A stretch of 64,000 bases of DNA from Candidatus Neomarinimicrobiota bacterium (lineage in GTDB: Bacteria; Fidelibacterota; Fidelibacteria; Fidelibacterales; Fidelibacteraceae), in contig JAGGVO010000012.1 of NCBI GenBank assembly GCA_021157965.1, forward strand, positions 1-64,000, read 5' to 3'. A program made the translations under genes and the position numbers. Each line of letters begins with the position of its first letter. The stretch's first letter is position 1. The notes beneath the pieces are model-generated. The model had not been told where the DNA came from, ran no database searches, and saw nothing but the letters and a program-made list of their open reading frames with translations. This document shows positions 1 through 39,543 of this stretch, piece by piece.

Positions 1-830
<830 letters not shown>

Positions 831-8404: not shown

Positions 8405-10132
8405 ATGCTTAAACAACTTCACGTGGAAAATTTTGCTATCGTTCGTGAAACGGATATCTCCCCCGGTCCGGGGTTGACTATTATGACCGGTGAAACGGGA
8501 ACGGGGAAATCCATAATCATCGATGCCCTGGGTCTGGTACTTGGGGACCGGGCAAACCTGTCCATGATTCGGAAAGGAAGCGACATGGCCGTTGTGGAAG
8601 CTGTCTTTGCACCACCGGTACTTCACAATGATTTAAAAAATTTTTTGACATCGAATGATTTGCCAGTCAATGACACGGAATGGATGTTCCGACGTGAAAT
8701 TCACCGAAACGGAAAATCCAGAGCCTTTTTTAATGACCACTATGTCTCACTTCAAATCCTGAGAGAACTGGCAGATTCTCTGGTGGAAATGCATGGACAG
8801 CATGAGCATCAGAAAATTTTGAACAGCAACAGTCATATAGATTATCTGGATGCATACGCCAACAATCCTGAACTGATCCGGAATTATACCCGTGCCCTTA
8901 TGGATTTAAAGGAGACAGTCCGGCATGAAGAGAAGCTTAAGAAGAATCAGGATCAGTTCCTGAAAGAACAGGAATTAAAATCATTCCATTATCAGGAATT
9001 AAAAAAAGTGAATCCCCGTCCCGGAGAGCTGGACGAACTTGAAGGCGAGTTAAAAATATTGGAGAATTCACAGGAGCTCGTGGATACAGCTCACAGGATT
9101 GCTGATAAGCTATATGAAAATGACGATTCCGTGATTTCCCTGCTCAGTTCATTAAAACACGATCTGGAACATCTGCTGCGTATTGATTCCACACCTTCGG
9201 AATACCTGAAGGAACTGGAATCGGCCATCATTTCCCTGGAAGAAACGGGCAGGAGTATGGCGGAATACCGGGATCACATCCCCCATGATCCGGCGCGGCT
9301 GGAAGAAATCAGAGATCGGGTGAATGTCCTGAATTTTCTTACGCAGAAATACCGTAAAAAGTATAACGAATTGTGTGCTTATTATCAGGAATTGGAAACA
9401 GAGTTATCCGGCGAACAGGATTTTTCGGCAGAACTCAGGAAAGCGCGGGAACGGACGGAAAAGGCCCGTATAGCACTTGTCGAGGCCGGTGAACGCCTGC
9501 ATAAAAAAAGGCAGGAAACTGCCCGCGTTTTTTCGGAGGCTGTGGAATCCAGACTGCACCGTCTGGGCATGGAACACGCCCGGTTCAGAGTCCGCTTTTT
9601 CTGTCAGAAAGGGACATCCCCCCTCTCTGTTACATGGCACGGCAAAACAGTGATTCCCCAACCCCATGGTTTTGACCTGCTTGAATTTGAAATCATCACA
9701 AACCCCGGTGAAGATTTTCGCTCTCTGACTCAAACAGTTTCGGGAGGTGAAGCCTCACGGATTATGCTGGGCATTAAATCGGTCCTCGCGGATGCCGATT
9801 CCATTCCCACCCTGATCTTTGATGAAGCCGATGCCGGTGTGTCCGGACGGATTGCCAGGATTGTAGGCGAACAGATAGAGGAACTCTCCCGTTATCACCA
9901 GGTGATTTGCATTACACACCTCCCGCAGATTGCCTCACTTGGAGAGCATCATGTGGTCGTGGAAAAAGAGATTTTGCAGGGACGGACAGAAACCCGGATT
10001 CGCGAACTTCAGGATGAGGACCGGATTCAGGAAATCGCCAAACTTCTTGGAGCAGGTAAAATGACCGGCGCTGCCCTGGAAAATGCCCGGGATCTTCTCA
10101 AAAAATCACATCAATTACCGAAAGAATCATGA
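8405..10132 (+). CDS. recN: DNA repair protein RecN
   Basis: RecN is an SMC-like ATPase that acts early in recombinational double-strand break repair. The 575-residue length is normal. The N-terminus has the Walker A motif GETGTGKSII (around residue 32). A long coiled-coil central part (about 150-370) is followed by the SGGEASR signature and Walker B LIFDEADAGVSG. The ribosome site AGGAG lies in the end of the VanZ gene. Its last codon overlaps the next start (ATGA). Confidence 0.97.
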   Translation: MLKQLHVENFAIVRETDISPGPGLTIMTGETGTGKSIIIDALGLVLGDRANLSMIRKGSDMAVVEAVFAPPVLHNDLKNFLTSNDLPVNDTEWMFRREIHRNGKSRAFFNDHYVSLQILRELADSLVEMHGQHEHQKILNSNSHIDYLDAYANNPELIRNYTRALMDLKETVRHEEKLKKNQDQFLKEQELKSFHYQELKKVNPRPGELDELEGELKILENSQELVDTAHRIADKLYENDDSVISLLSSLKHDLEHLLRIDSTPSEYLKELESAIISLEETGRSMAEYRDHIPHDPARLEEIRDRVNVLNFLTQKYRKKYNELCAYYQELETELSGEQDFSAELRKARERTEKARIALVEAGERLHKKRQETARVFSEAVESRLHRLGMEHARFRVRFFCQKGTSPLSVTWHGKTVIPQPHGFDLLEFEIITNPGEDFRSLTQTVSGGEASRIMLGIKSVLADADSIPTLIFDEADAGVSGRIARIVGEQIEELSRYHQVICITHLPQIASLGEHHVVVEKEILQGRTETRIRELQDEDRIQEIAKLLGAGKMTGAALENARDLLKKSHQLPKES

Positions 10133-11243: not shown

Positions 11244-14200
11244 TGCACTATCCCTTTGAAAAAATATTGCAGATCCTCCGGCGAAGACTGGCCACAGACC
11301 GGCTTAAAAACCGTCTTTTCCGGCTGATGGGTATAAACAGCCGTTATCTGCTTATCCTGATCTTATGTGAAAGTATCTGGTATCTTCCATCCACTCTCCG
11401 GTGGATTCTTCTCGTCCCCCTTTTGGCCAATGGCATCATTCTGGTATGGATCCGGGATTATTGGGTGGACAGAAATATCCATAAAAAGCCGGAAGAAAAC
11501 ACACGGTTGATGGAATCTTTGGGTCAACAGTTTCCGGAAGTACGAGACCGCCTGATCAATGCCTGGCAATTGAGCAGACAGTCAGATCCCCTGCCTCAGT
11601 TGGCTGTCCGGCGCCTGTCCGAAACCCTGCCGGCTGAACACATCCTCAAACACCTGAAGCAAAACAAATCCAAATCCTCTCATTCATCCTTACAAACAAA
11701 AACAATCATTTCTTTACTCTTGTTTCTGAGTGTTTCTCTCTTTTTAAGGGATGCATTGATCCGCGTTGCTACCCCTGGCCGGACTTATCCGGTTCCTTTT
11801 CCCTGGACATGGAGCATAGAACCGGGGAATAAAACACTGAAAGAGGGTGATTCCCTGGAAATCCGTATTGCACACACACTCCCTCGCCACTTTCCGAAAA
11901 GCGTGATGATTCAAAGTCCGAAAAAAACAGAGGTCGTCCTTCCCGAAACTATCAACGACACGCTCTCAACCCTGTTCATCCCCAATCTGCAATCTGCATT
12001 CATGTACACATTCATTGTTCGCAGACCACATCCATTTATGCCCTGGAAACAAAAATCTTCACAAACGTACTCTGTAAATGTCCTGAAACGACCTGTGCTG
12101 GAATGGCTGGAATTTGAGGTTATACCTCCGGCCTATACAGGACTGGATCGGGAAATCTATACAGGAGGCACCGACAGAATTCATATCTTGCAGGGATCTG
12201 CATTGGAAATTACAGGCCGCCTGACATGCCCCCCGGATGAAGTGACAGCAAGTCTTGGTGACCGCTATATCCAGCTTGATACCCGGAATCATAACTTCCA
12301 AGGGTCTTTGAAACCTGTACATACCGGAACACTCATCATAACGGCTAAAGATACAAACGGTACCGCGATGGAAAACGATGTGAGTTATGAAATATCATTG
12401 TACAAAGATGAGAAACCGGTTCTCACCGTCCTGGAACCTGAAGATGAACTCCTTTTGGATGAAAGCATGACAATCCCCTGGGGTGTATTTATCAGTGATG
12501 ACTTCGGCATTGTATCTCTATCATTGGAAACCCGGGCGGTAAAATCTTTCCGGTTGAAACCGGATTCAATCTGGACAGACCATCCGCTTTCTTTTGACCG
12601 GGGCCAAAAGGTGCAAACAGCAAGCGGGGTATGGTATATCAATGAACGGCTTAGTCCGGGAGATGCTTTGGAATTCCGCTTCAAAGTTGTGGACAATAAC
12701 ACCCTTACAGGGCCGGGCATCACCCGTTCAAAGATTTTCAGGGCTCGTTTCCCCTCCCTGACTGAACTTTTTATCCGCTCAGGCCGGCAACACGCTGATA
12801 CACACGGAGACCTTCAGTCACTGCAGGAACTTTCAGAAAGCATCCGGGAAAAAGCAGAATCGCTGCGGGAAAACATCCTCAAAAAGGGCAAGGCAGACTG
12901 GTCCGAGCAGGAAACCATGAAAAACCTGATTGAGCAGCAGGAAATGGTAAAGGAATCGTTGAGAGCCATCAAGGAATCCCTGGAAAAACAACTTGCGGAA
13001 ATATCTGAGCAGTCCCTTTTTTCCGATAAGGTTCTGGACAATATGGCCTATCTGCAGGAGCTGGTGAAAGATTTGGAAAAGAGTGAATTGTTCAGGGAAT
13101 TGCAAAAAATGCAGGAAAGGCTCAAAGGCAATCCGGATGCCGAAACGATAGAACACATGAGCCATGATTTGCAGGAAGAAGCGGAGAAATTTTCAAAGGC
13201 ACTGGAAAGGACAATTCGTTTACTTGAAACATTACGGGACATGGAAACCCTTGAAGAAGGGGAACGGATACTGGATGAAGCGCTCCGGAAACAGACAGAT
13301 CTGATAGAAAACGAAAAAAGCCGTACTTCCACAGAGCTGGCTAAAACTGAACATGATTTGTCGGAAACGTTACAAAATTTACAACAGAGCCTCAGTCAGA
13401 AGTCCGGAGAGGTTTCGGAAAGCCTTCAGGAAAAACTGGAGAAATTTTCAGCTCTTATGGATTCTTCGGCATTGAGCGGGATGCTTGATGAAACAGCTCA
13501 GGCCTTTGCTGAAAACAGGCGTCCTGAAGGTCTTAACAAGGCAGGTGAATCCCTGCAAAAAATGGAAGAACTCCTGAAGCAGTATCAAAACATGGCATCC
13601 GGCATGAAGCAGGCTAAGAAAGAGGAGGTTTTGCAGGATTTTCAGCAATTAATCCGCCGGGCGTTATTGATTTCAGAAATGCAGGAAAGTAATCTTCCGG
13701 GAACAAAGGATTTGAAAAACGACTCCCAGCCGTTACAAGAACGGTTTTCGGAACAGAACGCCATTCTGGAATCATTAAATCAATTGGGAGCCGGACTGGA
13801 AAATATTGCAGGAAAAACTTTTTTCATGGGTCCACAGCCCTTTCAGGAATTGCAAAAGGCCCGGTCATTATCTGCCGAAATATTAACCCATCTTTTAGAA
13901 GGACGTTTTCATCAGGCTGAACAAACCATGATACAAAATCTGGGGCAGGTCAACGAATTAACAGGGACAATACTTGGTCTTATGGGACAAGCTCAGAGCA
14001 GTGAAAGCGGTTCCGGGATGGAGCAATTTATGGAACAATTACAGGCCATGGCTGAAATGCAGGGGGCTCTTAATCAGGATTCCCGGGGAATGTCTATACC
14101 CGGCCAGGGAAATACGTCCATGGATTTGATGAGTCAACTTGCAGCCCGTCAGCAGGCCTTGCGCCGGGAATTGGGCAGATTGCAGCAGGCTATGGAACAA

Positions 14201-27971: not shown

Positions 27972-28005
27972 AATCAATAATTTTTAATATATTAAACTAT
28001 TGATT
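27972..28005. repeat. AT-rich interrupted dyad, possible operator
   Basis: Outer arms AATCAATA and TATTGATT (8 of 8 complementary) flank a perfect inner palindrome, TTTAATATATTAAA (27983-27996). It ends 21 bases before the -35 box of the HemC-like gene, a position suited to a regulator-binding site. Confidence 0.5.
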
Positions 28006-28026
28006 TTGTCAGTCTGGGAAATTATA

Positions 28027-28055
28027 TTTAGACTCAGTTAATAACGCAGTATAAT
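28027..28055 (+). promoter_or_regulatory. promoter of the HemC-like gene
   Basis: -35 TTTAGA (28027-28032, four of six), a 17-base spacer and a perfect -10 TATAAT (28050-28055). The start point would be about 28062, leaving a leader of around 87 bases; a ribosome site AAAAGGAG lies just before the ATG at 28149. Confidence 0.65.
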
Positions 28056-28148: not shown

Positions 28149-29054
28149 ATGGATGAATTAATCATTGGAACTCGGGGTGACCGTCTGTCCATCTGGCAGG
28201 CAAATCACATCAAGCAGCTCTTAAAGGATCATTATCCTGAATTGAATATCCGGATGAAGATCATCAAGACGCGTGGAGACCAGTTAAGTGAATATCCTTT
28301 ATCCAATCTTGACCGCAGGGGTTTATTTACAGCCGAACTTGAGCAGCAGTTATTGAATGATCAGATTCAGATGGCGGTACACAATGCACTGAACATCGAC
28401 ATTTCCCTGGCGCCGGGACTCATCCTGGCCGGATATCCCAAACGTCAGTCTGCCGAGGAAGCTTTCGTCAGCTACAAATGGTCCGACCTGGAAGAGCTTC
28501 CCGCTTCGCCTGTCATTGCTACAAGCAATATCCTCCGCCGAATCCAATTCCATGAAAAATATCCCAAAACCCGTTTTGTTGGTTTACAGGGACATTTCAA
28601 CTCCCGGATTTTTAAATTAAAAAACCAGAAATGGGACGGATTGATTACAGAGTATGTGAATATTGAGCGAACAACTGTTCAAAAGATTCACGTGGTTACC
28701 TTTGATGTGGAATCCTTTGTTCCTTCGATCGGACAGGGAGCCATTGGCATTGAAATCTCCAGCTATAACGACAAAATCCGTGAACTGCTGGAACCTATCC
28801 TTGATACGGAGACCAATACCTGTGTAAGCCTGGAACGGAAAATCTACCGGGATTTATACCGGTTAAACGACCGGCTGATCATCGGAGCCAATGTCCGGAT
28901 GGAAGATAAAGACATGAAAATGGTGGTTTTTGTTGCTTCTCCGGAAGGGGAACATTCATTGAAAAAAACTGAAAAGGGGAACCCGGAAGAAGCAGAAAAA
29001 ATGATCACAGATCTGGTGGACTCATTTAAAAGCGAAAAGGTTACAGACTGGTAA
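28149..29054 (+). CDS. HemC-like protein lacking catalytic residues
   Basis: This 301-residue homologue of hydroxymethylbilane synthase retains TRG (8-10), RRGLFTAELEQQLL (56-69), LRR (129-131) and PSIGQGAIGIE (192-202). The catalytic HSxKDvP motif reads HNALNID (78-84), so the active-site Lys and Asp are Leu 81 and Asn 82. The dipyrromethane-binding Cys region reads RLNDRLIIG, with no Cys; the only Cys, 225, lies elsewhere. The third domain is divergent and short. It cannot plausibly work as a normal HemC. No other haem gene is nearby. A binding or regulatory role is inferred. Confidence 0.8.
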   Translation: MDELIIGTRGDRLSIWQANHIKQLLKDHYPELNIRMKIIKTRGDQLSEYPLSNLDRRGLFTAELEQQLLNDQIQMAVHNALNIDISLAPGLILAGYPKRQSAEEAFVSYKWSDLEELPASPVIATSNILRRIQFHEKYPKTRFVGLQGHFNSRIFKLKNQKWDGLITEYVNIERTTVQKIHVVTFDVESFVPSIGQGAIGIEISSYNDKIRELLEPILDTETNTCVSLERKIYRDLYRLNDRLIIGANVRMEDKDMKMVVFVASPEGEHSLKKTEKGNPEEAEKMITDLVDSFKSEKVTDW

Positions 29055-29080: not shown

Positions 29081-29109
29081 AAAAAAGGGCTTCAATTGAA
29101 GCCCTTTTT
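29081..29109. terminator. bidirectional terminator between HemC-like and barrel genes
   Basis: The perfect palindrome GGGCTTCAATTGAAGCCC (29087-29104) is preceded by six A and followed by five T, so it can terminate both convergent transcripts. Confidence 0.9.
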
Positions 29110-29920: not shown

Positions 29921-31288
29921 TCAGAGGGTCATTTCACACATGAATGACCGGGCAGACATCATCTCACAGGAAAAAATGGCCTGGGTTATTTTATTAATTT
30001 TTGTTTCGCCGGCTACAGGCTTTGCTAACGCGGCAAATTTGTTTTTCAGATCCTGTACCGTCATGGGTTCCCGGGGATCCCCTTTGGGATACTCCAGGTA
30101 TTGCTCAAAGACACGTCCGTCCTTCAGGGTAATCCGGACTTTAGACGGTTGTTTCGCAGGGAACATCTTCTCAAATTCAACCGAGGCTTCACCTTTGATT
30201 TTGTCAATCACTTCCCACAATCTTGGATCTTTCAATTTTTCGTCAGAAAAACTCTCTGTTGTGATTTTTTTATCGATTAAAGCCCTGGCTATGCAGTACG
30301 GCAGGCTGTGATCTGCCGTTTCCCTGCTTTCCGGTCTGTATTTATGGGGGTCAAACAAAATATCGCAGGCTCTGGCAATCGTTGTGATAACCACATCACT
30401 GATTCGGTCATAAGAAATATCATTTTCAGTGACAATTTTAATCGCGGCAGATAAGTGGGTATGGGTCAGCGCTTCGGTTGGAAAGGCTTTCATGCTGCAT
30501 TCCATAATCCGGTAAGATTCCCCCAGCCCTTCCGTCAGAACTGCATCATCCCAGGAAGGTCCGTACACATCCCGAAAACCTTCTTTCCCTTCGAAGATAG
30601 CTTCAGTACCCGTATACCCTTTTTGAGCCATCAGGGCGGCAAACACGCCCGATTGCACAGCCATGGGATCAACCGTATTCTTCATCATCGTCAGTTTTCC
30701 TGCAGTCGGACATCCGATGGTATGGTTGTGACATGCATTAATCCCAATGGCATGTACCATCTGATCCTCGGTGAGTCCCAGAATTTTTCCTGCTACAACA
30801 GGTGATACGAGCTGAGTCAGTGTGGCATGGTGCCATTTCCGTTCACGGACTCCCGGTTTTGCCCACTCACACAGGCGTTGCTCAAACTCATAGGCCAGGA
30901 TAATGGCAACAATAACATCCTGCATTGAAGCATCTACTTTTTCCGCCAATCCCAAGGCTGCCGGGATCAGATCTGAGGGGTGGGACGGATCTTCTTTCCA
31001 GTATATGTCATTGAAATCCAGGGCCCGGATCATGAGTGAGTTGAGCAATGTACTATTGACAGCCGGCAGCTTATCCCCAAACCCCAATACCGTCGATTCG
31101 GGTTCTCCTTCCATCTCAAGAAAAAGATCCCGTATGATATTTACATCACGTGTTTTCATGCTGCCAAGGGCACATCCCACAGAATCATAAATAAACCGTT
31201 TGGCCTGCCCGACCACTTCTTCCGGAAGGTCTTCATACTTAAGGTTTACTGCAAAGCGTGCAATCCTGCGACTGATCACGTCGGTCAT
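29921..31288 (-). CDS. MmgE/PrpD family protein
   Basis: This 455-residue protein belongs to the family that includes 2-methylcitrate dehydratase (PrpD) and cis-aconitate decarboxylase. Shared features are RFIYDSVGCALGS near the start, LDFNDIYWKEDPSHPSDLIPAALGLAE (the DfdD-like catalytic region), the HHATLTQLVSPVVAGKILGL helix and KAFPTEALTHTHLSAA. The prpB/prpC partners of the methylcitrate cycle are absent, so the substrate is uncertain. It starts 29 bases after the M16-like lipoprotein stop and may share that transcript. Confidence 0.85.
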   Translation of the reverse strand: MTDVISRRIARFAVNLKYEDLPEEVVGQAKRFIYDSVGCALGSMKTRDVNIIRDLFLEMEGEPESTVLGFGDKLPAVNSTLLNSLMIRALDFNDIYWKEDPSHPSDLIPAALGLAEKVDASMQDVIVAIILAYEFEQRLCEWAKPGVRERKWHHATLTQLVSPVVAGKILGLTEDQMVHAIGINACHNHTIGCPTAGKLTMMKNTVDPMAVQSGVFAALMAQKGYTGTEAIFEGKEGFRDVYGPSWDDAVLTEGLGESYRIMECSMKAFPTEALTHTHLSAAIKIVTENDISYDRISDVVITTIARACDILFDPHKYRPESRETADHSLPYCIARALIDKKITTESFSDEKLKDPRLWEVIDKIKGEASVEFEKMFPAKQPSKVRITLKDGRVFEQYLEYPKGDPREPMTVQDLKNKFAALAKPVAGETKINKITQAIFSCEMMSARSFMCEMTL

Positions 31289-34183: not shown

Positions 34184-34207
34184 AAAAGGGACGGTTAGAT
34201 CCCTTTT
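34184..34207 (-). terminator. probable terminator after sdhB
   Basis: Arms AAAAGGGA (minus strand) and TCCCTTTT around an 8-base loop form a stem that starts at the sdhB stop codon; a short T-rich tail follows in the leftward direction. Confidence 0.55.
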
Positions 34208-34926
34208 TTGGAAAACTTTGGATTGAGTTGCCGGGCAATAATCTGCCGTTTGAGATTGGCAATATTCGCCGTGGGGTCCACATTTTTAGGACACACCGTC
34301 TGACAGTTAAAAAGAGTATGGCAGCGAAAAACACCGTGTTCATCGCAAACCAGTGCCAGCCGTTGTTCATCGGCCTTATCCCGTGAATCCATTAAAAAAC
34401 GGTTTGCCTTGGCCAGAGCTGCCGGCCCGAGATATTCATCATCATACCCATTGACGGCACAGGAGGCATAACAGGCACCGCAGAGAATGCAATCTACTAT
34501 ATAATCAAGATAAGCGCGTTCATCCTGTGTCTGAATCCGTTCCGCCCCCTCATCGGGATCTCCGGGGATCAAATAGGGTTTTATGGCCTTGAGCTTTTCA
34601 AAAAAAGGTGTCATATCCACAACCAGATCCCGAATGATGTCCATGTGCGCCATGGGACGAATCGTTATGGAAGAACCTAAATGGCTCACCTGTGTTTCAC
34701 AGGCCAGGCGGTATTTCCCGTTGATATGCATGGCACAGGATCCACAGATACCTTCCCGGCAGGATGAACGGTAAGCCAGGGAACCGTCCAGATTCTCCTG
34801 AATATAGTTCAAAGCCTGCAGAACCGTCATACCCGGGCGGCAGGGGACTTTAAATGTATCAAAACGGTGTTTTTTGTCCGTTTGCGGGTTAAAACGAAAT
34901 ATTTTAAATATCTTTGAATCAGCCAT
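34195..34926 (-). CDS. sdhB: succinate dehydrogenase/fumarate reductase iron-sulfur subunit
   Basis: It is the electron-transfer subunit of complex II. The 243-residue protein carries the [2Fe-2S] motif SCREGICGSC with a distal Cys, and the [4Fe-4S]/[3Fe-4S] motifs CILCGACYASC and CHTLFNCQTVCPKNVDP. All expected Cys are present. The direction (succinate oxidation or fumarate reduction) cannot be told from sequence. It starts 21 bases after sdhA, behind a GGAG site, and ends the operon. Confidence 0.95.
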   Translation of the reverse strand: MADSKIFKIFRFNPQTDKKHRFDTFKVPCRPGMTVLQALNYIQENLDGSLAYRSSCREGICGSCAMHINGKYRLACETQVSHLGSSITIRPMAHMDIIRDLVVDMTPFFEKLKAIKPYLIPGDPDEGAERIQTQDERAYLDYIVDCILCGACYASCAVNGYDDEYLGPAALAKANRFLMDSRDKADEQRLALVCDEHGVFRCHTLFNCQTVCPKNVDPTANIANLKRQIIARQLNPKFSKKGI

Positions 34927-34947
34927 GCTTATCTCCGGTAAGATCTA

Positions 34948-36675
34948 CTAATAATGACGTTTTTTTGCTTTATACAGGGATAAGTCCACAGAGGAATAAC
35001 CAAGGTGCACCGTCCCGTCTTTCCAGCTTGCAATGGTATGTTTCATCCAATTTTTATCATCCCGCATGGGATAGTCGGTCCGGAACTGTGCACCGCGGCT
35101 TTCCTGACGGTTGATAGCGCCACGGAGAATCACTTCTGCCAGATCCAGGCTTCCTTTAAGCTGTAGTGCCCATAACAAATCAAAGTTGGCAATCCGTCCG
35201 CTGCTGTTCAAACCGATATGCCGATATCTTTCCTTGAGTTCTTTTACTTTTTCCAATGAAGCGTTCATCGTCCGGGCTTCCCGGAAAATGCCGGCGCCGG
35301 AATCCATTGCTTCGCCCAGTTCATGCTTGATGGCGGAATGTTTTTCTTTTCCTTTGGATTTAAGAAGCTGTTCTATTTTATCTTCTTCTTCCCTGAGAAT
35401 TTGATTCAGGAAACTTACCGGGACATCCTCTCCGCCCCCGTCTTTGAAATAAGCGGAAGCATACTCGCCGGCAATTTTCCCGAAAACGACTGTTTCCAGG
35501 AGTGAATTTCCTCCCAGGCGGTTTGATCCATGCACACTGACACATGCGCATTCACCTGCAGCAAAAAATCCCTTGATTTTCGATTCGGTGTTGAGATTTA
35601 CATCCAGCCCGCCCATGGTATAATGCTGTCCCGGTGCGACGGGAATGGGTTCGTCAATAGGATCCACGCCGGCAAAATGGATGGCATGCATACGAATACC
35701 CGGAAGCCTTTCGAGAATTTTCTTTTTCCCCAGGTGCCGGAGATCCAGGTGAATATATTTCCCTTCAACACCCCGGCCTGCCAGAATTTCACGCTGCATA
35801 TTCCGGGCAACAATATCCCTGGGTGCCATTTCCATGGCCTTTGCCGAATCCTCGTAGTTCGCCAGAAAACGTTCTTTCTTGTTGTTCAGGAGAAAGCCTC
35901 CCTCTCCCCTGGCGCCTTCGGTTATAAGTACATTATTGGTGTAGAGTTCAGTGGGATGAAATTGAATAAATTCCATATCTTTAAGGGGAACACCCTCATA
36001 AAAGGGGACACACATTCCCCAGCCTGTATTGATGTAAGCATTGCTGGTCCGACCGAAGACGCGTCCAGATCCACCTGTAGCCCAGATCACGGCCTGACCG
36101 GCAAATATTTCAAATTCACCGGTATTAATATTCAGGGCAATCACACCCTTTGCCGTGCCGTTATGCACAATCAAACGGGTAACAAACCACTCATCAAAAA
36201 TCTGCATATCCGCCCGTTCACTGGCGGCTTCAAACTTCAATGCCTGTTCATAAAGGGTATGAAGAAGCACGTGCCCGGTTTTATCCGTTGCATAACAGGT
36301 CCGGGGAAAACCAGCTCCTCCAAAAGGTCTTTGAGCGATACGCCCGTCTTCCGTACGGCTGAAAGGTGCCCCCCAGTGTTCCAGCTCGTATATCCGTTCA
36401 ATACCCTCAGTGGTCATTTTCAATACGGCTTTCTGATCGGCCAGATAATCACTGCCTTTGATTGTGTCGAAAGCATGGAGCTCGGGGCTGTCAAACTTTC
36501 CGCGGGGATGATTGCTCAAAGCGGCGTTGATTCCTCCCTGGGCTGCCACACTATGGGAGCGAACCGGGTGGACTTTCGTCACCACGGCAACTTTCACGTT
36601 ATGACGATTCAATTCTAAAGCCGCCCGTAATCCTGCCAATCCGGCTCCAACCACAATAACATCAGATGTAATCAT
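34948..36675 (-). CDS. sdhA: succinate dehydrogenase/fumarate reductase flavoprotein subunit
   Basis: It is the catalytic subunit that interconverts succinate and fumarate. The 575-residue chain has the FAD-binding GAGLAGLRAALE, RSHSVAAQGG with the His that binds FAD covalently, QFHPTEL, TEGARGEGG, and a C-terminal RTDYP-containing end (RGAQFRTDYPMRDDKNWMKH). GGAGG lies in the overlapping end of the SdhC gene. It functions with the iron-sulfur and membrane subunits flanking it. Confidence 0.97.
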   Translation of the reverse strand: MITSDVIVVGAGLAGLRAALELNRHNVKVAVVTKVHPVRSHSVAAQGGINAALSNHPRGKFDSPELHAFDTIKGSDYLADQKAVLKMTTEGIERIYELEHWGAPFSRTEDGRIAQRPFGGAGFPRTCYATDKTGHVLLHTLYEQALKFEAASERADMQIFDEWFVTRLIVHNGTAKGVIALNINTGEFEIFAGQAVIWATGGSGRVFGRTSNAYINTGWGMCVPFYEGVPLKDMEFIQFHPTELYTNNVLITEGARGEGGFLLNNKKERFLANYEDSAKAMEMAPRDIVARNMQREILAGRGVEGKYIHLDLRHLGKKKILERLPGIRMHAIHFAGVDPIDEPIPVAPGQHYTMGGLDVNLNTESKIKGFFAAGECACVSVHGSNRLGGNSLLETVVFGKIAGEYASAYFKDGGGEDVPVSFLNQILREEEDKIEQLLKSKGKEKHSAIKHELGEAMDSGAGIFREARTMNASLEKVKELKERYRHIGLNSSGRIANFDLLWALQLKGSLDLAEVILRGAINRQESRGAQFRTDYPMRDDKNWMKHTIASWKDGTVHLGYSSVDLSLYKAKKRHY

Positions 36676-36678
36676 AAC

Positions 36679-37080
36679 TCAGCTTCCTCCAAACAGGACT
36701 TTCAATTCGGGAATAAAACGAAAAAGGGAAGCCAGTGCAATCGCACCGCTAAATATAAACACCCAGAGAATTAACACTTTTTGTTTATGGGAAAAACGAA
36801 GAAAATCTGTAACTGTAATACGGATCCCGTTGAACATGTGCCATAAAACGGCCAGAAGCAGAAAGTATTCCAGTACATGCCCGACTGGTGTATTATATCC
36901 TTCCATCATTTGGTTAAAGGAATCACCGCCTTCCAGGGAATGCCCCACACTGTAGATGTGTAAAATAATATAAAGGACCAAGGCCAGACCCGTAATCCGA
37001 TGGAAGACAAAGGCAAGCATGCCCCAATTGAAATTCAGTATCCACTCTTTCAGAAAACCCGGTTTCCGGTTGGGCATCAT
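36679..37080 (-). CDS. sdhC: succinate dehydrogenase cytochrome b subunit (SdhC)
   Basis: This 133-residue membrane anchor has three hydrophobic segments. The family signature HRITGLALVLYIILHIYSVGHSL includes candidate haem and quinone-site residues. It binds haem b together with the partner anchor and passes electrons to or from quinone. The start ATGATG overlaps the upstream SdhD stop, with GGAGGTG as ribosome site; the first ATG is taken. Confidence 0.88.
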   Translation of the reverse strand: MMPNRKPGFLKEWILNFNWGMLAFVFHRITGLALVLYIILHIYSVGHSLEGGDSFNQMMEGYNTPVGHVLEYFLLLAVLWHMFNGIRITVTDFLRFSHKQKVLILWVFIFSGAIALASLFRFIPELKVLFGGS

Positions 37081-37442
37081 ACACCTCCCTGCCGTGTAAA
37101 GGGTAAGATGGCCAGTATACCGTAAAAGACAATGACGGCACCTGCAATGGTTAATGTCCAGGCGATGATTTTTTTCAATACCGGCCGGGGATTATAATCG
37201 CTGATTACATTGTACAATCCGTTGAAAGCGTGATAAATGACGGCTGTTAACAACACAATATCAAAAAAAACCCAACCGGGCGATAAGAGTCTGTCCTGAA
37301 CTTTTTCAAAAGTGACCGGTCTTTCTATGGCAAAATGCAATACCCAGAAATGAATAAAGAGTCCTGCCACCAGAATCATGGCGGAGATTCTTTGCATGTA
37401 CCAGTGAAAAGCCGGACTGATGTTTCGAATGAGTTTCCCCAC
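37077..37442 (-). CDS. sdhD: succinate dehydrogenase membrane anchor (SdhD-like)
   Basis: This 121-residue protein has three hydrophobic helices. It includes HWYMQRISAMILVAGLFIHFWVLHF and LLTAVIYHAFNGLYNVISDY, whose His in IYHAFNG is the usual second haem ligand in SdhD. The gene starts with GTG at 37442, behind AAGGGG, and is first in the order sdhD-sdhC-sdhA-sdhB. Naming the two anchors C and D is by motif and could be swapped. Confidence 0.82.
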   Translation of the reverse strand: MGKLIRNISPAFHWYMQRISAMILVAGLFIHFWVLHFAIERPVTFEKVQDRLLSPGWVFFDIVLLTAVIYHAFNGLYNVISDYNPRPVLKKIIAWTLTIAGAVIVFYGILAILPFTRQGGV

Positions 37443-37586
37443 GATTTTTCCCCTTTTTGATAGCCGGTTCCAACTTTGTTTAGCTGTTTATAAAGTACAA
37501 AGTTTCTCAGAAAGAATCATGGAAAAGCTCTTTAATACTGAAAAAACATAAAGCAAGAATCTATATCAGAATATTTGGAAACATGC

Positions 37587-39407
37587 TTAATTCTGGTTTA
37601 TCAGCGTTTTAAGGCGATTCAGGAAGTCGTCGGGTTTTTCATAACCCAGGAGCCGGAAATCCCGGAGCTCACGTCCGTCGGGATCCAGAAACACGACAGT
37701 GGGAAATCCTTTGATATCATACGCTTCAATGAGATTTTCACCCCCGCGCGTGAGATCGACCTTGACAACGGTAAAACCATTTAACACCTCAACGACCCCT
37801 GGATGCCGGAATGTAATGGCATCCAGCTCTTTACAGGGAATACAACTATCCGAATAAAAATCGATCATCACATAGCGATCCTCTTCGTCGGCCTGTGCCA
37901 GGACAGTATCCGTGTAAGGCTGCCAGTCCGGAATTGTTTGTGCACCTGCATCCGGTTTAATCATCCATGTACCCGTCATAACAGCTATCAGGCTAAGAAT
38001 CAACTTGATTTTCCGGAACCCGGTAGATGTTTCGCCTGCCTGGTTAAATACTGCATAATAAATCCCTGCCAGAATCAGGTACAACGGCAGCAGAATCCGG
38101 GAAAAGGGCGGGTTCAGCAGGGGATGAATAAACCAGATCGCCATACCGATCAGAACCAGACCAAAAAAGATGCGAACACCATTCAGCCATTCTCCGGACC
38201 GGGGAAGGGCGTCCAGTTTTGCCGAAAACATGGCCAGGAAGATATAGGGAATCCCCAGGCCAAGAGACATGGTAAAAAAGAGGAGGAATCCGGTAAGGGC
38301 ACTGCCTGAAGCTGCCACATAGGTGAGCAGGCTAATCACAAAAGGACCGATACATGGAGCAGCAACAATACCCATGGTGAGTCCCATCATCAGAGAACCT
38401 GCATAACCGGATCGGCTTCCGCCTCCCAGCCGGGTCAAAGCATAGGGCAGCCGGAATTCATAAAAACCAAACATGCTCAACGAGAGAACCAGCATCAGCA
38501 GTGCCAGCAGGATAAGGACAACAGGACTGGTCATCAGGGAACCGAACAGGCTTCCGGAAAGGGCCGCAGCAGTCCCCAGAACCGAGTAGGTAACAGCCAT
38601 ACCCAATACATAGAGAAGTGCCAGGATAAGAACATTTCCTTTTGCCTTCTGAGATCCGAAATAACTGATTGTCACCGGTATCAGCGGATATACACAGGGC
38701 GTCAGGTTCAAAGCCAGTCCACCTAAAAACACCAGGACCAATACCCAGAAAAAATTCCGCGAAGCAAGGGGATTAACTTTTCCGATTGCTTTAAAATCAC
38801 TATCTGTCATAACAGATTCAGTTTCGGCAGTCCGTTTCCCGGTGTTTTGCACAGGTTCCGAATCCTTTGCAGCATCCTCTTTATTTGCCTGGGGTTGAAC
38901 AGTTATTTCAGATTCAACAGGAATCGCCCTGCTCAGAACTTCGGGGTCCAGTGACACAGTAAATGTAGATTCCATGGGGATAAGGCACATTTCATTATCA
39001 CAACCCTGGTAGGAAAGGGTTCCTGTCAGTGTGGTTTTGTTCGACAAAGGCTGCTTTTCTTTCAGGTGCAATCCAATGACAAGCGTCCCGTCATAAACAG
39101 AGCTTTTTCCACCCAGGGATTCAAGATTAACCAGGTGGGCTTCAGGGTACTGCACGCTCACTAATGAAAAATAAGGATTATCTTGCAAAGTCATACGGGC
39201 CGGGATGGAATAATTATCCAGAGGATCGTGGCTGTTAATATGCCAGCCTTGTTCAATCAAAAAATGAAGCGCCACAAAAGCCGTCCCATCCTCCTGCCCC
39301 GGATGCACCTCATGTTTCTGCAGGCGGACTAATTTATCCGGAACAGCTGAAAACAGCACTGTCGTGATGAATAAGAGAGGAAAAAATATGCGCAATACCC
39401 TTTTCAT
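37587..39407 (-). CDS. dsbD: thiol:disulfide interchange protein DsbD
   Basis: This protein carries reducing power from cytosolic thioredoxin across the inner membrane. The 606-residue chain has a signal peptide, an N-terminal DsbD-alpha domain with Cys 136/141 (GCDNEMC), and an eight-helix transmembrane domain with Cys 238 (NLTPCVYP) and Cys 352 (APCIGP). A C-terminal thioredoxin-like domain has SCIPC (522/525) and the cis-Pro in GFPTVVF. All six redox Cys are present. ATG 39407 follows GAGG at good spacing; the upstream in-frame ATG lacks one. Confidence 0.94.
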   Translation of the reverse strand: MKRVLRIFFPLLFITTVLFSAVPDKLVRLQKHEVHPGQEDGTAFVALHFLIEQGWHINSHDPLDNYSIPARMTLQDNPYFSLVSVQYPEAHLVNLESLGGKSSVYDGTLVIGLHLKEKQPLSNKTTLTGTLSYQGCDNEMCLIPMESTFTVSLDPEVLSRAIPVESEITVQPQANKEDAAKDSEPVQNTGKRTAETESVMTDSDFKAIGKVNPLASRNFFWVLVLVFLGGLALNLTPCVYPLIPVTISYFGSQKAKGNVLILALLYVLGMAVTYSVLGTAAALSGSLFGSLMTSPVVLILLALLMLVLSLSMFGFYEFRLPYALTRLGGGSRSGYAGSLMMGLTMGIVAAPCIGPFVISLLTYVAASGSALTGFLLFFTMSLGLGIPYIFLAMFSAKLDALPRSGEWLNGVRIFFGLVLIGMAIWFIHPLLNPPFSRILLPLYLILAGIYYAVFNQAGETSTGFRKIKLILSLIAVMTGTWMIKPDAGAQTIPDWQPYTDTVLAQADEEDRYVMIDFYSDSCIPCKELDAITFRHPGVVEVLNGFTVVKVDLTRGGENLIEAYDIKGFPTVVFLDPDGRELRDFRLLGYEKPDDFLNRLKTLINQN

Positions 39408-39543
39408 GAAAACCTCGTTTTTGGATTTTTTGTCAGTTTCCGGCAAAAAACGTTACAGAAAATATGGAGTCTCTTTTTGAGATTCATGTAAAAAGCATGT
39501 AGATTTCAAAAATATTGATCCACTAAAGAAAGGATACAAAATC

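Follow-up and report, generated by a model that had tools for sequence, protein, structure and literature searches.

The locus analyzed here raises the question of what a homologue of HemC (hydroxymethylbilane synthase, or porphobilinogen deaminase) is kept for when its catalytic residues, and apparently the pathway around it, have gone. The window, a stretch of 64,000 nucleotides, belongs to a 2.3-Mb Marinimicrobia genome (Fidelibacterota, formerly Neomarinimicrobiota) that is 96% complete and assembled in 61 contigs. Within the window lies a gene that we call degenerate hemC (Table 1). Its product is homologous to HemC over nearly its full length, matching the NCBIfam model TIGR00212 at 203.7 bits (cut-off 164) and PF01379 at 164 bits (cut-off 22.1), and a comparison with the sequences of solved structures pairs it with E. 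coli HemC (E 3e-40). The AlphaFold2 model (mean pLDDT 92.5, pTM 0.90) finds its best Foldseek match in E. coli HemC 1ah5 (E 1.2e-29, TM 0.86, rmsd 2.3 Å), and the predicted three-domain fold is that of the HemC structures 1ah5, 1pda and 4htg (TM 0.86-0.89). A preliminary description of this DNA had recognized HemC by the signatures TRGD (residues 41-44), RRGLFTAELE and PSIGQGAIGIE; all three are present, and the HMMs and the predicted fold agree with the assignment. Residues shared with HemC, such as His80, Gln19, Arg176 and Gln198-Gly199, are retained (in ORF numbering, His78 and Arg174 are kept). No signal peptide is apparent, and a genome search found no second, complete hemC in the source genome, so that the degenerate gene is its sole copy. 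Nor do any haem-synthesis genes lie near it, as had been stated, while a succinate dehydrogenase cytochrome operon does lie in the window.

Table 1. Features of the degenerate hemC locus, in window positions
Feature	Position	Strand	Basis or remark
Degenerate hemC (degenerate HemC homologue, 301 aa)	28149..29054	+	ORF call, HMMs, AlphaFold2, Foldseek
H78-N79-A80-L81-N82, replacing H-S-x-K-D (Ser81, Lys83, catalytic Asp84)	28380..28394	+	alignment
N127-I-L-R-R131, replacing S129-L-R131-R132 (Ser to Asn; Arg131 to Leu, or Arg pair shifted by one)	28527..28541	+	alignment
Q147, replacing Arg149 (human Arg167)	28587..28589	+	alignment; residue equivalence from PMC8561815
L239-N240-D241, replacing Gly-Gly-Cys242 (dipyrromethane attachment loop)	28863..28871	+	alignment
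Promoter-like block AATATATTAAAnnATTGATTTT ... TATATTT (TTGATT-17-TATATT)	27988..28029	+	conserved in five g1 species; sole exact match in window
Palindromic terminator GGGCTTCAATTGAAGCCC + T run	29087..29109	.	common to convergent neighbour; similar hairpin in other g1 species
Convergent neighbour, exported outer-membrane-like protein, 214 aa	29131..29775	-	g3: OMP_b-brl protein, same place and orientation
MmgE/PrpD-family protein, second convergent gene	29921..31288	-	g3 orthologue in same place beside degenerate hemC
DsbD-sdhD-sdhC-sdhA-sdhB block	34195-39446		PrpD-linked, common to g1 and g2
Partial 16S rRNA gene, at window edge	1-830	-	

In what follows, g1 is the window's own genus, g3 the second genus bearing degenerate hemC and g2 a third genus of the family; lost residues are numbered as in E. 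coli HemC, and ORF numbering is used for the residues of the window protein. The proteins were aligned with the HemC proteins of the whole phylum, among which 44 canonical HemCs defined conservation. Of the 31 positions conserved in at least 95% of these, 14 are lost in all six g1 proteins, 16 in all three g3 proteins and 10 in both genera, and the lost positions centre on the active site. The H-S-x-K-D motif is kept in 44/44 canonical HemCs, where degenerate HemC has H78-N-A-L-N82, which bears out the preliminary description's reading that HSxKDvP had become HNALNID and Lys-Asp Leu-Asn. Likewise, Asp84 and Cys242 are each present in all 44, and D241 aligns with Cys242, so that the dipyrromethane site indeed has no Cys. 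The window protein thus carries the changes S81N, K83L, D84N, S129N, R131L, R149Q and Cys242 to Asp, at positions where all 44 canonical HemCs keep the usual residue. The losses of S81, S129, R149 and R131 (or a shift by one, since residues 129-133 can be aligned only to within one position) had not been noted in the preliminary description.

These changes recur throughout both genera. Ser81 and Ser129 are each replaced by Asn in 9/9 proteins. Asp84 has become Asn in 6/6 g1 proteins and Asn, His or Tyr among the three of g3, and Arg149 is Gln in g1 and Asn or Tyr in g3. The Gly-Gly-Cys242 loop reads LND, IND or INP in g1 and INN or ISN in g3, placing Asp or Pro (g1) or Asn (g3) at the Cys242 position. 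Lys83 is Leu in g1, and Arg131 is Leu or Ile there unless the Arg pair has slid by one residue. Of the six cleft arginines (R11, R131, R132, R149, R155, R176), g1 retains four, Arg11, Arg132, Arg155 and Arg176; these, and position 59, where g1 keeps a basic residue, lie in the cofactor cleft or close to it. In g3, Arg11, Lys59 and Arg132 are lost; R131 and R176 are always kept, and R155 is kept in one of three proteins.

These residues have established roles. Cys242 bears the dipyrromethane cofactor (PMC7242693; PMC8561815), Asp84 serves in catalysis, and the pyrrole carboxylates are held by the arginines (PMC7907807). The Bacillus megaterium D82N enzyme, equivalent to D84N, is inactive according to the passage of PMC8561815 that quotes Guo et al. 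2017, and human D99N, D99H, R149L and R149Q (E. coli positions 84 and 131) are porphyria mutations (PMC7907807). Two HemC mutants of known structure, B. megaterium D82N (5ov6) and human R167Q (8pnd), have the same single changes as the D84N and R149Q fixed in degenerate HemC; however, those are single laboratory or patient changes with the cofactor Cys retained, whereas degenerate HemC has several such losses together, fixed throughout a clade. From the residue losses, the residue roles, the dead D82N enzyme and the porphyria mutations, we strongly infer that porphobilinogen deaminase activity has been lost.

The surrounding pathway is missing as well. HemA, HemB and HemD were absent from all family genomes searched, including a g1 genome assembled as one contig, and so was ferrochelatase (HemH); the same searches found HemA, HemB and HemD in relatives with canonical HemC. 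Matches to hemA in family f1 were weak and below the cut-off. Canonical HemE is absent too: the remaining UroD-family proteins are weaker matches, and in the source genome their best scores are to MtaA/CmuA-type methyltransferases, while they fall far short of the hemE cut-off. A genome of the same order carries an ordinary hemA-hemC-hemD-hemE run. Of the steps covered by the searches, which run from GluTR to ferrochelatase, g1 and g3 keep a protein for only one, namely a HemC that has lost its catalytic residues. With no HemA, HemB, HemD or ferrochelatase, and only UroD-like methyltransferases, neither the substrate nor the product of HemC is expected. This also bears on whether the protein could still be a working deaminase that uses another cofactor anchor and another acid, as its score above the equivalog cut-off, the Cys225 invariant in g1 and an Asp two residues past the Asn that replaces Asp84 might suggest. 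Such an enzyme is scarcely credible, because g3 has no Cys225, the single D82N change already kills the real enzyme, at least as quoted in that source, and there is neither HemB to supply the substrate nor HemD or HemE to take the product.

Three observations concern tetrapyrrole metabolism more broadly. On contig C59 of the source genome (9000-20000), two UroD-family methyltransferases (MtaA/CmuA-like, below cut-offs) lie beside a B12-binding protein. This cluster resembles those of corrinoid methyltransferases; the organism itself appears incapable of corrinoid synthesis. Across the phylum, a HemC match was found in only 59 of 245 Marinimicrobia genomes, and tetrapyrrole auxotrophy seems common there. 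In families f12 and f26, HemC is about 510 aa long, with intact catalytic residues and a C-terminal extension of about 200 residues, which had no Pfam match at 0.001 and was not HEM4 in the two proteins tested.

Degenerate hemC was found in 6/6 g1 genomes (70-90% protein identity) and in 3/3 g3 genomes, whose version is 35% identical to that of g1, while none of ten g2 genomes gave a hemC match. In the four g2 genomes checked, no hemC remnant was found at the equivalent locus; the DsbD-sdh-PrpD-OMP block remains, and a phosphomannomutase-like gene (named from the start of its sequence) stands after OMP in the place of degenerate hemC. The genomes are mostly MAGs, so that a lone absence could be a gap, but repeated absences, one of them in a single-contig genome, are hard to explain in this way. 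In the phylum tree, the nine degenerate proteins form one clade with support of 100/100, and the degenerate copies are therefore a conserved group spanning two genera. Given that both stems are long, the tree was rebuilt without g3 and without g1, and each version was placed in or beside the same Marinimicrobia HemC group. These separate placements fit a single vertical origin; outside the phylum, the search reached close relatives only.

The coding sequences were compared by the Nei-Gojobori method, with g1 values taken from close pairs. The dN/dS of degenerate hemC in g1 is 0.036-0.085, which exceeds that of GroEL (0.02-0.03) and is much like that of neighbouring genes for a glycosyltransferase and an acyl-ACP synthetase; in g3 it is 0.14-0.22. 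None of the nine frames contains an internal stop. As judged from these ratios, degenerate hemC is under strong purifying selection. The preliminary description had allowed that the gene might be a single-strain decaying copy; instead, it is present and constrained in every g1 and g3 genome. A relic left behind by the lost pathway and on its way out could account for the missing pathway, the complete loss of the gene from g2 and the faster evolution in g3. That reading is already disfavoured and very improbable in our estimate, since the frames are open, the g1 ratios are low, the promoter block and terminator are conserved (see below), and the gene was long retained while the other hem genes searched for vanished.

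The preliminary description had also assigned the gene its own promoter and terminator, and a promoter-like block and a terminator can indeed be seen. The promoter-like block is kept in 5/5 g1 species with available upstream DNA, the remaining upstream DNA having diverged, and the promoter in use is most likely its TTGATT/TATATT pair (28000-28028). An alternative pair, TTTAGA/TATAAT at 28027-28055, scores better but was set aside for its lack of conservation. The palindromic terminator is absent from the mechanical scan, which requires a loop of 3-8. No riboswitch or other known RNA was found upstream of degenerate hemC. In g3, where the gene follows dnaK, a hairpin with a T run lies between the two; this disfavours their co-transcription, and degenerate hemC is thus probably its own transcription unit there too.

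Downstream, both genera share the order degenerate hemC (+), small exported outer-membrane-like gene (-), PrpD (-). The PrpD proteins of g1 and g3 are clearly orthologous (67% identity), while no sequence similarity was detectable between the two outer-membrane-like neighbours, whose homology is thus unsupported. Both linked genes are convergent to degenerate hemC, and g2 has PrpD without it. In genome G007, PrpD next to degenerate hemC has shrunk to a 91-aa ORF (~8451-8726 of its locus), while in G011 it is full length. Within g1, G002 has only short ORFs in place of two downstream M16 peptidase genes (11364-13650) that the other species carry intact.

This neighbourhood is relevant to the possibility that the protein acts through its surface rather than its cleft, as a protein-binding or regulatory scaffold. 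The segment SxIFKLKNxK (152-161) is invariant in 9/9 proteins, although canonical HemC varies at several of these positions. However, there is no clear excess of such positions over the number that two incompletely diverged clades would share, and the only partner gene linked in both genera is the convergent PrpD, which leaves a scaffold role decidedly unlikely.

Since the pathway appears to be lost, a role in handling imported tetrapyrroles was also considered, in which the polypyrrole cleft would hold imported haem, a precursor or a cobamide for the haem and B12 proteins of an auxotroph, as a chaperone or scavenger. The four arginines and the basic residue at 59 retained in g1 are compatible with this idea, and g1 has SdhC/SdhD-type cytochrome subunits and B12-binding proteins while showing no tetrapyrrole synthesis. 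Yet g2 has Sdh cytochromes and B12 proteins without degenerate hemC, g3 has degenerate hemC without a Sdh_cyt match, and the arginines and lysine lost from the g3 cleft (Arg155 in two of three proteins) make polypyrrole binding there unlikely. Haem supply for succinate dehydrogenase was accordingly rejected as a general explanation, and a link to B12 use does not discriminate, because B12-binding domains occur in all genomes. The distribution of the gene argues against the simplest haem-for-Sdh or cobamide roles, and we regard a chaperone or scavenger as unlikely overall. Somewhat less likely still is a new enzyme whose cleft would catalyse another reaction without the dipyrromethane cofactor. 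It would explain why a well-folded cleft protein is under strong selection and why His78 and the remodelled group of Asn residues in the pocket never vary among the nine proteins; on the other hand, His78 is the only invariant acid/base candidate in the pocket, residue 84 may be N, H or Y, and no metabolic gene is consistently in the same operon.

We consider it probable that degenerate HemC is a HemC that lost catalysis once and was then kept for a non-enzymatic, or at least a non-HMBS, job. Catalysis would have been lost in the common ancestor of g1 and g3, when or after the lineage ceased to make tetrapyrroles, and the protein would since have been retained in the cytosol, most likely to bind a ligand. 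The two-lobed, hinge-closing cleft may still bind a small molecule in a pocket reshaped by the two Ser-to-Asn replacements, and by closing on this ligand the protein could serve as a sensor, carrier or buffer in the cytosol. That the HemC fold has been reused for another job in both genera is very probable; binding of a small molecule in the old cleft, with closure, is the most likely form of that job, given the retention of a two-lobed cleft that is predicted to fold and whose pocket is altered consistently, the lack of a plausible catalytic set and a distant structural kinship to class II binding proteins and effector domains. The g3 protein likewise gives a confident predicted fold. For the window protein, Foldseek also matched binding proteins of the PBP type and the effector domain of BenM, but weakly (E 1e-9 to 1e-7, TM ~0.4). 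Class II periplasmic-binding-like proteins and LysR-type effector domains (BenM, 2f78) have a similar two-lobed cleft, an analogy of how the protein may work only: the structural match is weak, there is no sequence relation, and degenerate HemC has neither a signal peptide nor a DNA-binding domain. Against ligand binding, no functional neighbour is conserved, the linked genes are convergent, and PBP-like folds also occur in catalytic proteins. The erosion of the g3 cleft means that a ligand common to g1 and g3 is not assured, and a tetrapyrrole, whose binding or sensing the preliminary description had suggested, is only one candidate.

Taken together, the missing Asp and Cys, the conserved clade, the purifying selection, the single hemC copy and the absent pathway strongly support the pseudoenzyme proposed in the preliminary description. 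Its author had known of no described family of this kind, and in the open literature searched we found no report of a non-catalytic HemC or HemC pseudoenzyme; degenerate HemC is possibly the first to be described. TIGR00212 scores both degenerate versions above its 164-bit cut-off (192.7 bits for the version outside g1), and annotation pipelines will therefore call them active HemC, crediting haem auxotrophs with an enzyme that they lack. HemC is among the most constrained enzymes of primary metabolism, and a conserved clade without its Asp and Cys can reveal what this fold is capable of once the chemistry has gone, offering a natural cofactor-free scaffold for study. Tentatively, degenerate HemC may represent a new family of cytosolic ligand sensors or carriers that arose from HemC and that tetrapyrrole-auxotrophic Marinimicrobia would keep for a ligand relevant to their lifestyle.
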